This document shows, in pieces, positions 21-24,331 of a DNA stretch of 31,017 nt. The position numbers were made by a program, and so were the translations under genes. The notes under the pieces are model-generated. The model saw only the letters and a list, made by a program, of their open reading frames with translations, was not told the origin of the DNA and made no database searches. Position 1 is the stretch's first letter, and every line of letters starts with the position of its first letter. The stretch covers positions 891,309-922,325 of the forward strand of contig OV299793.1 in NCBI GenBank assembly GCA_923184405.1, read 5' to 3'. This DNA comes from Neisseria meningitidis (lineage in GTDB: Bacteria > Pseudomonadota > Gammaproteobacteria > Burkholderiales > Neisseriaceae).

Positions 21-731
21 CGTGTGCTACTAGATTAGCAGATGTTGCCCTCGAAATATAAGATAACGCACTGCAAATTAAGAAAAGAGTACGAAGAGCT
101 GCTCCGTTTTTTTGTACTCGAAGTTACCGCCCGTTCTGCCGCCGATATTTTGGGTATCCATCCCAATTCGGCAGCACTTGTTCTACCGTAAAATCCGCAC
201 GGTTATCAGCCATCATTTGTATGGCTGCCGATGAGGTTTTTGAGGCCCTGTCGAGCCGGACAAAGCGGTTTCGGCGGACGTAAAGGCGAACGTGGTCGCG
301 GTGCGGCAGGAAAAGTGGTTGTCTTCGGCATTCTGAGACGCAACGGACGGGTCTGCCGTTGTGGTGGATAATGCCAAGTCTGAAGCGTTACTCCTGTCAT
401 CAGAAGAAAATCATGCGGACAGCATTGTTTATACCGATAGTCTGAGCAACTGCGACAAGTTGGACGTAGGCGGCTTCATCCAGTTACCGCATTGCAACCA
501 TTCAAAGGAAGGTGCAGACCGTCAAAACCACATGAAAGCGGCATTGAGAACTACGGAATCAGGCAAAACGCGTCTTGCGCAAATACAACGAAAGTGATCG
601 TGTGGAAATCTTTCCCGCTGTTCTTGAAAGAATGCAAATTTCAGGTTTAACTTCGGCACACCACCGTCCCGACAGCTAAAAATTTTGCAGGATTGGTGTA
701 GAATTGCAGAAAACTAATCTAGTACAGCCCC
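21..731 (+). mobile_element. IS1016-like (IS1595 family) element, decayed copy A
   Basis: The right end is CTAATCTAGTACAGCCCC (714-731). Its reverse complement matches the left end at 21-38 in 12 of 18 positions, with 11 contiguous identical bases (TACTAGATTAG). The span of 711 bp is that of a full IS1016-type element. The interior encodes a broken transposase on the plus strand. The family assignment rests on the transposase motifs and end sequence; it differs clearly from the IS1016 remnant near 20 kb, so it is another member of the group. Confidence 0.75.
42..717 (+). pseudogene. IS1016/IS1595-family transposase, broken
   Basis: This encodes a DDE-type transposase of the small IS1016 group. 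Read across several frames it gives the N-terminal helix-turn-helix region (TARSAADILGIHPNSAAL-like), a shifted GGRRKGERGRGAAGKV-like block, and then an open stretch at 361-597 with DSIVYTDSLS (catalytic Asp region) and DRQNHMKA (the RQNHINGIENFW region). The C-terminus, with KILQDW, runs to the stop at 715-717. At least four frameshifts or stops separate these blocks, so the protein cannot be made. The start at 42 is the first ATG inside the left end and is only probable. Confidence 0.7.
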
Positions 732-1513
732 TTATTTTTAAGGTTTGTACTTTATCTTAAACATCAACAGCTCAGCTAGAAACTATAAAACCGCGTGTCT
801 ACCTGCGCCGAAAGTTCGCACCCTACACACGCAGGCTGCGCTACATTTTTGGGATGTAGGATAGGCATTTATACCCACACGGTTTCAGGCTGCCTTGAAA
901 TATGAAAGCAGCGATAGGGCAGCAAGTGCCCACCCTACGCTTGCTCCATAAGACATAATCAACAGTTACGCAATAAACTGTATAAGAGGATTATATTTGT
1001 ACATAATTTTATCTCTATGTTTCTGATTGGTTTATGATATTCGAAGCCTCCTTAGAATTTAAGTAGATAGTTTTCCTTGTCACTTCGCGCGTTGCTTGTC
1101 ATTGATAATAAGTCACTACTACTTACGTGAAAGCTACTCCTTTCTTGAAAAAATCGTCACGAACAGTTATCAATCTTTAAAATCTATTTAAAACAAAAAT
1201 ATACAGATATTTCAGGCTGCCTGAAACACAAAAATAACATTACCTGACCGCAACAGAGTTCGGAGCAGCCTGCACCCTAACCCTGTGCCTTAACGGTATG
1301 CAGGAGGCACGAGAGGTGCGAGGCATCCTCATCTAACTCGATTCCTAAGCCGTTTTACCTTCCTGAAACGAGAACTTTCCATACTTGCTCTTTACAAGTA
1401 CCATATATATCCTTACAATGCGTTCTGCTGCTTTATTTATATATTGCTTTCTACTTAATATGTTCCCTTTCCAGCCAGCCGTTATCCACATCCAATCTAA
1501 CTATATTTTATTT
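732..1513. other. Intergenic region upstream of the RTX exporter relic
   Basis: I see no credible gene in these 780 bases. The first part contains CACCCTAC-type short repeats (about 815-950), of the kind scattered between neisserial genes. Two copies of an alternative uptake-like motif occur: AGGCTGCCTTGAA (887-899, one extra T) and the palindromic TTTCAGGCTGCCTGAAA (1210-1226). The remainder, about 960-1200 and 1380-1513, is AT-rich and presumably held the promoter of the exporter gene, but I cannot assign one. Confidence 0.5.
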
Positions 1514-3646
1514 ATGTCTATCGTATCCGCACCGCTCCCCGCCCTTTCCGCCCTCATCATCCGTCGCCCATTACCACGGCATTGCCGCCAATCCTGCTGA
1601 TATACAGCACGAATTTTGTACTTCCGCACAGAGCGATTTAAATGAAACGCAATGGCTGTTAGCCGACAAATCTTTGGGATTGACAGGCAAAGGTAGTCCG
1701 CCAGCCTATTAAACGTTTGGCTATGGCGACTTTACCCGCATTGGTATGGTGCGATAACGGCAACCATTATACTTTGGCCAAAACAGACGGTGAAGGTGAG
1801 CATGCCCAATATTTGAATACAGGACTAAGTTATGAATAAGTCCGTGGTATTGTCTTTGCCGAATTTTCAACAGATAATCGGGCAGGACTGATATTAGTTG
1901 CTTCCCGCGCTTCGGTAGTTAAGCAGTTCCGCAAAGTTTGACTTTACCTGATTTATTCCGGCGGTAATCCAAACACCACCGATTGTTTTTTGAAGCATTG
2001 GTGGTGTCAGGTGGTGTTGCAGCTGTTTGCGCTGATTACGCCTCTGTTTCTCCAAGTGGTGATGGACAAGGTGCTGGTACATCAGGATTCTTACTTTGGA
2101 TGTGGTGTCGGTGGCTTTGCTGGTGGTGTCGTGTCTGAAGATTGTGTTGGGCGGTTTGCGGACGCATCTGTTTGCACATACGACTTCACATATTGATGAG
2201 CAATACGGAACGTTGTCATCTGGCATCTGCTTTCCCTGCCTTTTTTTTTTATCCTATTTCGAGCACAGACGAGTAAGATACGTGGTGGCTCGGGTGGAAT
2301 CGACAGACTGCAATTTTCGACCTAATAGGCGCTGGACTTCGGTGTTGGATTTGGTTTCGTTTATCTTCCGGCGGTGATGTGGTATTACAGCTCCACTCTG
2401 ACTTGGGTGGTATTACTGTTGCCTGCCCATGCGTTTTGGTCGGCATTTATCAGTCCGATTACTGCGGACGCGTCTGAACGATAAGTTCGCGCGCAATGCA
2501 GACAACCAGTCGTTTTTAGTAGAAAGCATCACTGCGTGGGTAATGCAAAGGATGGCGGTGGAGCCATGACGCAGTTGTTAACAATCAGTTGGCGGCTTAT
2601 GTATTTGGATTTCAACGAAGTTGGCGGTGGTCGGCCAAAGTGGGGTGCAGCTGATTCAGAAGCCGGTGACGGCGACGTTGTGATTGGCGCACGGCTGGTA
2701 ATTGAGGCAAGCTGACGGTGGGGCAGCTGATTGCGTTTAATATGCCCGACAGGTGTACGGCGTCCAGTTACCCACTGCTCATCGCAGCTGTAGCAAGATT
2801 TACAGCATGCTGGGGATTTCGGTGGCGCCTTTGGAAGATATTCTGAATGCGCCGACCGAGAATGCGTATACGCATATGGCTTTGCCTGATATCCAGGGAG
2901 ATTACGATAGAACATGTCGACTACCGCTATAAGGAGGACGGCAAGCTGATTTGCAGGATTTCAAACTGCGGATTCGGGCCGGGAAGTGCTGGAAATGTGA
3001 AACGATCGCGATCTGCGGCAACATCCACACTCACCAAATTCAAGAGATGCACCTGTCTCAATCTACAAAGAGCTAATATCCACAAGCGTCGCTATGGACG
3101 GCACGATGTGGCTTCATGCACAATCCAGCACTGGCTGCGGAGGCCAGGTCGAACAGAGCACCGCAAGAGCCAGAAGTGCTGCTGTACAGCTGCAACATAC
3201 GACAAAATAACGCCGCCGACGAATACAGATAAACCGCTTCAACGAATAATCCAAACAGGCAACTGGCGAGCACACACGAGTTTATGATGGAGAAGCCAGA
3301 CCGCAACGGCAACGTGGGGGCAGGCAATGAGCAAGCCGTCCAGCGGACAGCGGTAGCGTATTGCAGACTGCACGCGCGTTAATCACCAATCCACGCATTC
3401 TGATTTTTGATTGAGTAACCAGCGCGCTGGATAATAAAAGTGAACAAGCGATTATGCAGAACATGCAGGCCATTTGCGCCAACCGGACAGGTGCTGATTA
3501 TCGCCCACCGTCTGTCCACTGTTAAAACGGCACACCGGATCATTGCCATGGATAAAGGCAGGATTGTAAAAGCGGAAACACAGCAGGAATTGCTGGCGAA
3601 GCTGAACGGATATTACCGCTATCTGTATGATTTACAGAACGGGTAG
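1514..3646 (+). pseudogene. RTX-type I secretion ABC transporter (HlyB/RtxB-like), decayed
   Basis: An intact version would be the inner-membrane ABC exporter of a type I system that secretes RTX proteins of the FrpA/FrpC kind: an inactive C39-peptidase-like N-domain, six membrane helices and a C-terminal ATPase. The start is the ATG at 1514 (MSIVSAPLPALSALII). Recognisable pieces follow in order and in several frames: membrane-domain text (LFALITPLF, QVVMDKVLVH) near 2020-2080, ALTSVLD-like text near 2330, [13 protein letters not shown] near 2490, EITIEHVDYRYKEDGKL near 2895, a degraded Walker A region near 3010, and the C-terminal ATPase end with IIAHRLSTVKTAHRIIAMDKG in frame at 3440-3646. 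The 2133-bp span matches the roughly 710-residue family length. Frameshifts are numerous and amino acid divergence is high, more than in the housekeeping genes here. It follows an IS and has no RTX substrate gene in the window. Confidence 0.85.
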
Positions 3647-3737
3647 AAGGCGGGGGATGGGCGTGTAGGCTGCTTTTTCGTAACGTTCTGCGTTTTCAGA
3701 CCGTCGTTTACTGGGTTTACTGACTGAAATGAAACCA

Positions 3738-3789
3738 AAGTGCAGGCTGCCGGAAAGACTTTTTCTGTCTTTTTAGGCAGCCTGCACTT
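3738..3789 (+). terminator. Hairpin terminator behind the exporter relic, built from AGGCAGCCTGCA-type repeats
   Basis: AAGTGCAGGCTGCC at 3738-3751 pairs perfectly over 14 bases with GGCAGCCTGCACTT at 3776-3789. It lies 92 bases after the exporter stop. The arms contain AGGCAGCCTGCA, resembling uptake sequences of Kingella-type dialects rather than the local ATGCCGTCTGAA. Confidence 0.7.
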
Positions 3790-3868
3790 CTTCTTCACTC
3801 ATCTAGAGACCTTTGCAAAATTCCCCAAAATCCCCTAAATTCCCACCAAGACATTTAGGAGATTTTCC

Positions 3869-4867
3869 ATGAGCACCTTCTTTCAACAAACCGCGCAAGC
3901 CATGATTGCCAAGCACATCGACTGAGCCCCACTATTGAAGTTGGACCAGGTAATTGATTGGCAGCCGATCGAGCAATACCTGAACCATCAAAGAACCCGT
4001 TACCTCTGAGACCACAGCGGCCGTCCTGCCTAACCCCTGTTGTCCATGTTCAAAGCCGTCCTGCTCGGACAATGGCACAGCCTCTCCAATCCCGAACTCG
4101 AACAAAGCCTCATCACCCGCATCGACTTCAACCTGTTTTGCCGCTTTGACAAACTGAGCATACCTGATTACAGTAAAAAGCAGTTACCAAAAACAGTACG
4201 GCGTTGCCTCGCCTTAGCTCAAAGAAGGAACGATTCTCTAATGTGCTGAAGCACCAAGTGAATCAGCTTCCAAAGCAGTCACTCACGGCAGCACCCTCCA
4301 GTCAGCTGCGCTGATAAACAGTATAACTCCACTAGAAGTATAACGAAGAAGGACAAATCAGCTGTTTAGCCTCGCCGAGTAAGGAAAGCGATGCATGATG
4401 GCTAAAGAACAACGACCTCGACAAACTCGGTTACGTACAATATACCTGTGCCGATTCGCAAGACTATATCGAGATAATGCACATCACCTCCGCCAATGCC
4501 CATGAGTGCAAACACCTGTCGCCGTTGATGGAAAGGTTGCCCGAAAGTACGACCGTCTAAGCCGACAAAGGCTATGACAGTGCGGAAAACAAGCAACATC
4601 TGGAATAACATCAGTTGTAGGACGGCATTATGAGCGAAGCCTGCCGCAACCGTCCGCTGACGGAAAAGCAAACCAAACGCAACCGGTATTTGTCGAAGAC
4701 CCGTTATGTGGTCGAACAAAGCTTCGGTACGCTGCACCGTAAATTCCGCTATGCGCGGGCAACCTATTTCGGACTGATTAAAGTGAGTGCGCAAAGCCAT
4801 CTGAAAGCGATGTGTTTGAACCTGTTGAAAGCCGCCAACAGGCTGAAGTGCGCCCGCTGCCGCCTAA
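3869..4867 (+). pseudogene. IS5-family (IS1106-like) transposase, broken
   Basis: The start is the ATG at 3869 after an AGGAGA ribosome-binding site. The N-terminal part reads to a frameshift and stop near 3925. A second block spans about 3945-4180 (the RIDFNLFCRF region). About 80 bases of Correia-like DNA then follow at 4188-4270. The frame is recovered from about 4410 (KLGY, ECKHLSPLMERLPE, ADKGYDSAEN) to the C-terminus (SFGTLHRKFRYARATYFGLIK, 4710-4780). The proper stop is at 4865-4867, one frameshift away. There are several in-frame stops (for example 4558 and 4606), so it is not functional. Confidence 0.85.
4188..4270. repeat. Correia element fragment inside the IS5-family element
   Basis: The stretch AAAACAGTACGGCGTTGCC, then CTTAGCTCAAAGAAGGAACG, then GTGCTGAAGCACCAAGTG, matches the left and middle part of the long Correia repeat. 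The terminal TATAGTGGATTAA and the whole right half (CTGTCTGCGGCTTCGTC onward) are missing. It is therefore a truncated or recombined copy within the transposase. Confidence 0.75.
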
Positions 4868-5040
4868 AAGGCAGCACGGATGCCTGATTATCGGGTATCC
4901 GGGCAGGATTAAGGGGTGTTTGGGTAAAATTAGGCGGTATTTGTAGCGAAAACAGCCGAAAACCTGTGTTTGGGTTTCGGCTGTCGGGAGGGAAAGGAAT
5001 TTTGCAAAGGTCTCTTTCGTCATTCCCGCCACTTTTCGTC

Positions 5041-23196: not shown

Positions 23197-23696
23197 TTAT
23201 AATGCCGAGGAAATTTCGTTGCGGAGATTGTCGAGAAACCTGCCTTGGCGGACTTGTTCAGCGGCTGTGTCGTAATCTTGTCGGGCAAACGACTGTTTCA
23301 GACCACAGAACAGTTTTTCTTGTTCGTCGCGGATTTCGTTGTCGAGATTTTTCAAGGATTCAAGGTCGTTGCCTGCCCGTGCCTCCATCAGCGTTTCGCG
23401 CCATTCCATTTGCTGCATAAGGAATTCGGGGCGAAAGCGGTATGCTCCGGCGCGTCGGCATCGATGCCCGATGTTTTCAGCAGGTAGGCGGCGCGGTCGA
23501 TGGGGTTTTTCAAGGTGCGGTAGGCATCGTTGATGGTGGAAGACATCATCACTGCCTGCTTTTGCTCAAAGGCGGAGGCTGAAGCGAATTGATCGGGATG
23601 GAAACAGGCAGCCAAGGCGCGGTAGGTTTGTTACAAGTTTTCGGTGTCGATATCGAAAGCGGGTTCAATCCGGAAGAGGGTGAAATATTGGGACAT
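23197..23696 (-). pseudogene. hscB: Fe-S co-chaperone HscB, one stop and one frameshift as sequenced
   Basis: A J-domain protein that brings IscU with its cluster to the HscA chaperone. The start ATG is at 23696 (MSQYFTLF). The J-domain HPD is visible in FHPDQFASASAFEQKQAVMM. The C-terminal helical IscU-binding domain is MQQMEWRETLMEARAGNDLE through GRFLDNLRNEISSAL. A Glu codon is changed to TAA near 23631 (ENL-stop-QTYR), and one C is missing near 23430 (FAPEFLMQQ). Corrected length is about 166 residues. It is separated from the isc operon by arfA on the other strand; hscA and fdx are not in this window. Confidence 0.92.
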
Positions 23697-23719
23697 AGTA
23701 GAATGATAAATGTAAGATT

Positions 23720-23748
23720 TTGGCAGAAAACTGTTTTTGCCTTATAAT
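23720..23748 (+). promoter_or_regulatory. Promoter of arfA
   Basis: TTGGCA (23720-23725), a 17-base spacer and a consensus TATAAT (23743-23748) lie 30 bases upstream of the arfA start. A GAAAGGA ribosome-binding site follows at about 23765-23771. The closest match to consensus I noticed in the window. Confidence 0.8.
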
Positions 23749-23777
23749 CTGCAGCTTCTTAAACGAAAGGACTGAAT

Positions 23778-23953
23778 ATGGGCGGCAAAGTGCAGCACAA
23801 TAAAGGCAAAATACGCGACAATGCTTTAAAAGCCTTAGTGAAATCCGATTTGTTCCGGCACAAGGTGGAACGGAAAAGGAAAGGCAAAGGCAGCTACAAC
23901 AGGCAGGAAGCGAAAAAATGGCGGGACGGTTTGATACTGTCCCGCCGTTTTGA
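23778..23953 (+). CDS. arfA: Alternative ribosome-rescue factor ArfA
   Basis: ArfA recruits release factor 2 to ribosomes stalled at mRNA ends without a stop codon, backing up tm[23 protein letters not shown] then [16 protein letters not shown] matches the family: the H-x-KGxIxDNA start and the basic KGKGSY. The ATG at 23778 follows AAAGGA. As written, one T is missing in GGTTT near 23930, so the frame runs on past the normal end. With that T restored the protein ends RDGFDTVPPF and TGA at 23951-23953, 57-58 residues. The last codons form a terminator hairpin, so most mRNA probably ends before the stop codon, the known way arfA is kept under tmRNA control. It is convergent with iscA. Confidence 0.85.
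23920..23951. terminator. Bidirectional terminator inside the 3' end of arfA
   Basis: GGCGGGAC (23920-23927) pairs with GTCCCGCC (23939-23946) around an 11-base loop, followed by GTTTT on the plus strand. On the minus strand the same hairpin is followed by ATTTTTT, a good terminator for iscA. The plus-strand T run directly overlaps the arfA stop codon. Confidence 0.88.
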
Positions 23954-23957
23954 TACC

Positions 23958-24282
23958 TTAAACATGGAAACTTTCGCCGCAGCCGCAGGAGTCTTTGACA
24001 TTGGGGTTTTCAAATTTGAAACCCTCCTGCAAACGCTTCTTTGGTGTAATCGACTTGCGTGCCGTCCGCATAAACCAGGCTTTTCGGATCGATATAAATG
24101 CAGCGCGCCGTGTCCTTCGAAAATCAGGTCGTCGCCATCAGCTTCATCGACAAATTCAAGGTTGTACGCCATCCCCGAGCAGCCGCTGGTTTTCACACCC
24201 AAGCGTACGCACCAAGCCTTTGCCGCGTTTGGCAGAGATAGTCATTGATGTGTTTTGCGGCATTCTCGGTAAGGGTAATCAT
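23958..24282 (-). pseudogene. iscA: Fe-S cluster assembly A-type protein IscA, frameshifted as sequenced
   Basis: An A-type carrier for Fe-S clusters. The start ATG at 24282 gives [16 protein letters not shown], then a shift occurs near 24235. [20 protein letters not shown], with the first conserved Cys, is open in another frame. A second shift near 24105 breaks the YIDPKS region. The end [11 protein letters not shown] carries the C-x-C pair. Corrected length is about 106 residues. Last gene of the isc run here; its stop is four bases from the arfA stop. Confidence 0.92.
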
Positions 24283-24331
24283 ATTTCTTCCTTGTTGTAC
24301 CGACCCGGACGGACCTGAAGCGGCGGGTTAG

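Follow-up and report, generated by a model that had tools for sequence, protein, structure and literature searches.

Two routes to non-stop arfA mRNA have been described, namely termination of transcription and cleavage by RNase III (PMC8012679). In Neisseria gonorrhoeae, transcription of arfA is reported to end at the hairpin, ahead of the stop codon (Schaub et al., 2012, as reported in PMC8327144), and in Escherichia coli an ArfA protein of 53–55 residues is fully functional (PMC3989591). Reviews explain the gonococcal need for tmRNA by there being no ArfA homologue, or none that is usable (PMC3989581, PMC8327144). Contrary to the lack of an ArfA homologue given in these reviews, the N. gonorrhoeae genome compared here (L006) carries a conserved, open arfA frame of 73 residues.

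The stretch analysed here (the window; 31,017 nucleotides from N. meningitidis) contains an instance of the published gonococcal case, and the mechanism of an in-gene arfA terminator is itself already known. We assign a probability of roughly 0.85 to the reading that the window holds an ordinary Neisseria arfA whose 3' coding region contains an intrinsic terminator, giving non-stop mRNA and control by tmRNA. Over positions 23700–24310 the window is 96.6% identical to the nearest genome compared (L034) and 95.4% identical to N. gonorrhoeae L006. The Neisseria DNA uptake sequence, GCCGTCTGAA, occurs 16 times across the whole window and its complement 11 times, 27 copies in all.

The coding region of arfA up to the T run described below comprises 58 codons on the plus strand (23778–23951), in a frame that stays open to 24248. 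That a gene for ArfA starts at ATG 23778, as the initial annotation had it, is borne out by a match of residues 4–46 to the Pfam family ArfA (PF03889; E = 4.5e-22, 77.7 bits against a gathering cut-off of 25.5). An NCBIfam scan of the protein read from this ATG returned no family at E 0.001. Sequence comparison also matched the protein to the E. coli ArfA present in solved structures of ribosome complexes (E = 7.2e-11 to 5.1e-10), and from this match its predicted role is to recruit RF2 to ribosomes stalled on non-stop mRNA. A Shine–Dalgarno-like AAAGGA, presumably used in translation of the gene, lies six bases before the ATG (23766–23771, plus strand). Further upstream, the near-consensus promoter that had been claimed is present as a putative site, TTGGCA-17-TATAAT (23720–23748, plus strand; score of 11/12). 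This was the only site scoring at least 9/12 in a 2-kb promoter scan (shuffles averaged 1.6), and of the 19 class-A rows, window included (the classes are defined below), 17 share its TATAAT and the other two have TATGAT.

A GC-rich hairpin had been placed at 23920–23946, near the 3' end of the coding region. Folding recovers a stable structure there, at 23916–23950 on the plus strand, with 15 pairs and, as the sequence reads, a loop of five (minimum free energy of −25.4 kcal/mol, z of −6.29; none of 200 shuffles as good). Its energy was reached by none of 500 uniform synonymous recodings of codons 43–61 and by none of 500 within-gene codon shuffles. When the within-gene codon control was applied to 27 distinct relatives, at most 20 of 500 sequences were as stable as the observed hairpin in each of them. 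Under the uniform synonymous control, no more than 25 of 500 were as stable for 24 of the 27 relatives; in the remaining three, all of class B (L028, L048 and L049), it gave 32, 63 and 83 of 500, so that the stability of these hairpins is not exceptional by this control. In most loci, therefore, the structure exceeds what the protein sequence demands.

The GC stem is followed in the window by TTTT and then GA (T run at 23948–23951, plus strand). A search requiring at least five T in eight positions did not pick the window's arfA hairpin, whose tail as read is TTTTGA, and a terminator scan of the window did not list the arfA site, reporting four sites elsewhere against 3.4 expected. Searches of the window for Rfam families at the gathering threshold and for tRNA or tmRNA genes returned none.

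The T run had also been said to overlap the arfA stop codon, and this part of the proposed anatomy does not hold. The TGA at 23951–23953 (plus strand) that was taken for the stop is rejected, since its frame is shifted by two bases from that of ATG 23778; the first in-frame stop is the TGA at 24246–24248, which gives a frame of 156 residues. Transcripts that stop in the T run, or even far beyond 23953, would likewise lack a stop codon, and 3' ends beyond 23953 would thus not refute the mechanism of the initial annotation, contrary to what it had stated.

The odd stop and frame of the window's arfA are most likely to be sequence error. Alignment of the window to the nearest genome shows 136 insertions or deletions of 1–2 nt over 25.8 kb (5.3 per kb), and a second alignment, covering 5.1 kb at the left end of the window, shows 97 (19 per kb). 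These 233 indels are dense throughout the window and worst at 28–5014 and after 30000, and some of them may be true divergence instead of error. Genes read off this window will often be broken, given this density. The genes gyrA, hscB, iscA, iscU, iscS and iscR were recognized by NCBIfam only as fragments in the reading frames scanned from the window, and damage spread over so many housekeeping genes is best taken as sequence error. Given the number of indels relative to the nearest genome, the same explanation most likely applies to the loop and stop of arfA. The loop is shorter in the window than in all 17 aligned relatives (11 distinct rows), by one base in 16 comparisons and by two in one, so intact copies of the gene exist; a TGA directly 3' of the T run is found in none of 27 relatives. 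The arfA gene of the closest relatives comprises 73 codons and overlaps, 3' end to 3' end, with iscA on the opposite strand.

Alternatively, the frame change could be real, a strain variant that runs into the iscA antisense region and does little harm, since ribosomes would seldom reach the codons beyond the terminator. Among 74 of 165 homologous protein clusters, at least one (P0002) switches to the altered frame at the same residues as the window, and in three more (P0055, P0056 and P0066) the frame changes slightly earlier than in the window. P0002, however, has two members, both from short contigs, and the four altered-frame clusters may themselves be errors. Together with the 233 short indels, the recovery of gyrA, hscB and the isc genes only in pieces, and the greater length of all 17 aligned relatives at this very point, this makes a genuine variant very unlikely. 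For viewing the arfA terminator, the window is thus a poor example.

In each of 27 distinct Neisseria relatives, a hairpin followed by a T run (five T in eight) lies at codon 56.7–61.7 of arfA, and the in-frame arfA stop comes 7–118 nt past the called T run. In the relatives shown, the T run is longer than that of the window. The loci fall into two classes. Class A consists of 18 relatives and the window and has a stem beginning GGCGGGA, with arfA flanked on the opposite strand by iscA (convergent) and hscB (divergent). Class B consists of nine relatives and has a stem beginning TCAG(G/A)TTTT, unrelated in sequence to the class-A hairpin although it occupies the same place in arfA. In none of the nine class-B loci did tblastn find an IscA or HscB match within about 1.5 kb on each side. 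That hairpins of unrelated sequence occupy this position in both gene contexts suggests that the in-gene terminator has been retained for arfA itself. A covariation analysis found one pair changed on both sides, which was matched by 132 of 500 shuffles and is no excess over chance, and 96.1% of alignment cells are able to pair compared with 44–63% in slid versions. The class-A stem hardly varies, so covariation is uninformative either way.

Both class-A neighbours are present in the window, in pieces as read. On the minus strand, convergent iscA occupies 23958–24282 (NCBIfam IscA on 23961–24071, with a tblastn match; the gene is intact in L034) and divergent hscB occupies 23197–23696 (NCBIfam HscB on 23200–23418, with a tblastn match). 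The arfA gene therefore sits antisense within the isc cluster (23197–24282), as it does in all 18 class-A relatives. On the minus strand the hairpin (23912–23950) is followed by ATTTTTTC; the class-A hairpin begins about 7 nt past the iscA stop, with ATTTTTTCGC after it. The minus-strand fold energies are −18.4 kcal/mol in the window, −23.9 kcal/mol in L034 and −27.2 kcal/mol in L006. An A6 tract precedes the stem in 17 of the 18 class-A relatives and in the window, and it is weak evidence of selection for a minus-strand T run since it also encodes lysines. We infer from this arrangement that, in class-A species, the minus-strand form of the hairpin probably doubles as the terminator of the convergent iscA.

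If that were its only function, the hairpin would be in the arfA frame merely through gene overlap. Its position about 7 nt after the iscA stop, the ATTTTTTC that follows it on the minus strand and the convergent IscA in all 18 class-A relatives and the window would fit such an arrangement. It would not account for class B, in which all nine relatives, with no IscA match, keep an unrelated T-tailed hairpin in the arfA frame, and we regard it as extremely unlikely.

In the proposed mechanism, RNA polymerase would stop in the T run, at about codon 57–62 and before any in-frame stop, so that most arfA mRNA would be non-stop. The tmRNA–SmpB complex would rescue ribosomes at the end of this mRNA, and the short ArfA would be tagged and degraded. 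On failure of trans-translation, untagged ArfA would build up, recruit RF2 and release stalled ribosomes. The steps of termination, tagging, degradation and release are taken from the literature or inferred; the identity of the gene, the hairpin, its conserved place before the stop, the gene order and the presence of tmRNA and RF2 (prfB) genes in near relatives were observed directly. The predicted Neisseria product of about 57–61 residues fits the activity of the E. coli protein at 53–55 residues. That terminated arfA mRNA is non-stop, so that tmRNA keeps ArfA low, is well supported for Neisseria. The initial annotation had proposed this mechanism for the window, and its substance stands, given the T-tailed hairpin before the in-frame stop in all 27 relatives and the published account for N. 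gonorrhoeae; what falls away is its anatomy, in which the out-of-frame TGA served as the stop. It also overlooked the convergent iscA, the low quality of the sequence and the earlier description of this case within the genus Neisseria.

The hairpin might instead be an RNase III site, with the non-stop mRNA produced by cleavage and not by termination. The E. coli arfA works in that way (PMC3989591, PMC8327144), and a stem of 15 pairs, as in the window, would be compatible with it. On the other hand, all 27 relatives carry a T run directly behind the stem, and PMC8327144 itself reports a gonococcal arfA hairpin that ends transcription. Cleavage as the source of the non-stop mRNA is therefore unlikely, and termination remains the preferred explanation.

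The partner genes were sought in near genomes. Both tmRNA and prfB scored over the cut-off in all 18 of the ArfA-bearing near genomes common to the searches; tmRNA in the window's own genome is assumed from these near relatives. ArfA was found in 25 of 60 genomes, all of them within the genus Neisseria (25 of the 36 genomes of the genus). The 11 Neisseria genomes with no ArfA match include seven that are 99–100% complete and four that are at most 85% complete, and arfA is probably missing in some Neisseria species.

The comparison outside Neisseria covered 20 ArfA loci. Long stems and T runs are present in all five loci of one group, presumably Pasteurellaceae, and lie after the stop in two of the five. 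In the 15 Halomonas-type loci the best T-tailed structure comes after the stop in 11, and four have none. This mixed layout indicates that ArfA genes do not in general carry an in-frame terminator.

The class-A arrangement raises a further idea, which we consider a long shot. A single hairpin might serve two opposed genes, ending the isc transcript after iscA and making the arfA mRNA non-stop, and isc transcription up to or across the hairpin might tune the supply of ArfA, through antisense RNA or polymerase collision. If true, iron–sulfur status would be linked to ribosome rescue. Antisense pairing between arfA and mscL in E. coli is reported to act likewise for osmotic stress (PMC10070815). 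A literature search turned up no published account of one hairpin serving both iscA and arfA; a supplementary table of arfA neighbours belonging to PMC10070815 may list iscA.

Of the described systems, N. gonorrhoeae arfA is the closest. L006 has the same gene and the same type of hairpin, with one stem pair and a few residues distinct from those of the window. Its T run is longer and its frame spans 73 residues, whereas in the window as read the frame is shifted and the tail is TTTTGA. The E. coli arfA resembles the Neisseria gene in its 3' coding hairpin, in a convergent neighbour that overlaps its 3' end, and in the non-stop mRNA and control by tmRNA that are predicted for Neisseria (PMC3989591, PMC8327144, PMC10070815). 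It differs in being truncated by RNase III and in having mscL as that neighbour, where Neisseria has iscA. The brfA gene of Bacillus subtilis shares with Neisseria arfA, as proposed here, an intrinsic terminator in the coding region, non-stop mRNA, control by tmRNA and the use of RF2, although it encodes a factor of a Gram-positive bacterium that is set apart from ArfA in its description (PMC6881298). Beyond this known mechanism, the comparison worth keeping is that of the two Neisseria groups, in which unrelated hairpins occupy the same codons of arfA.
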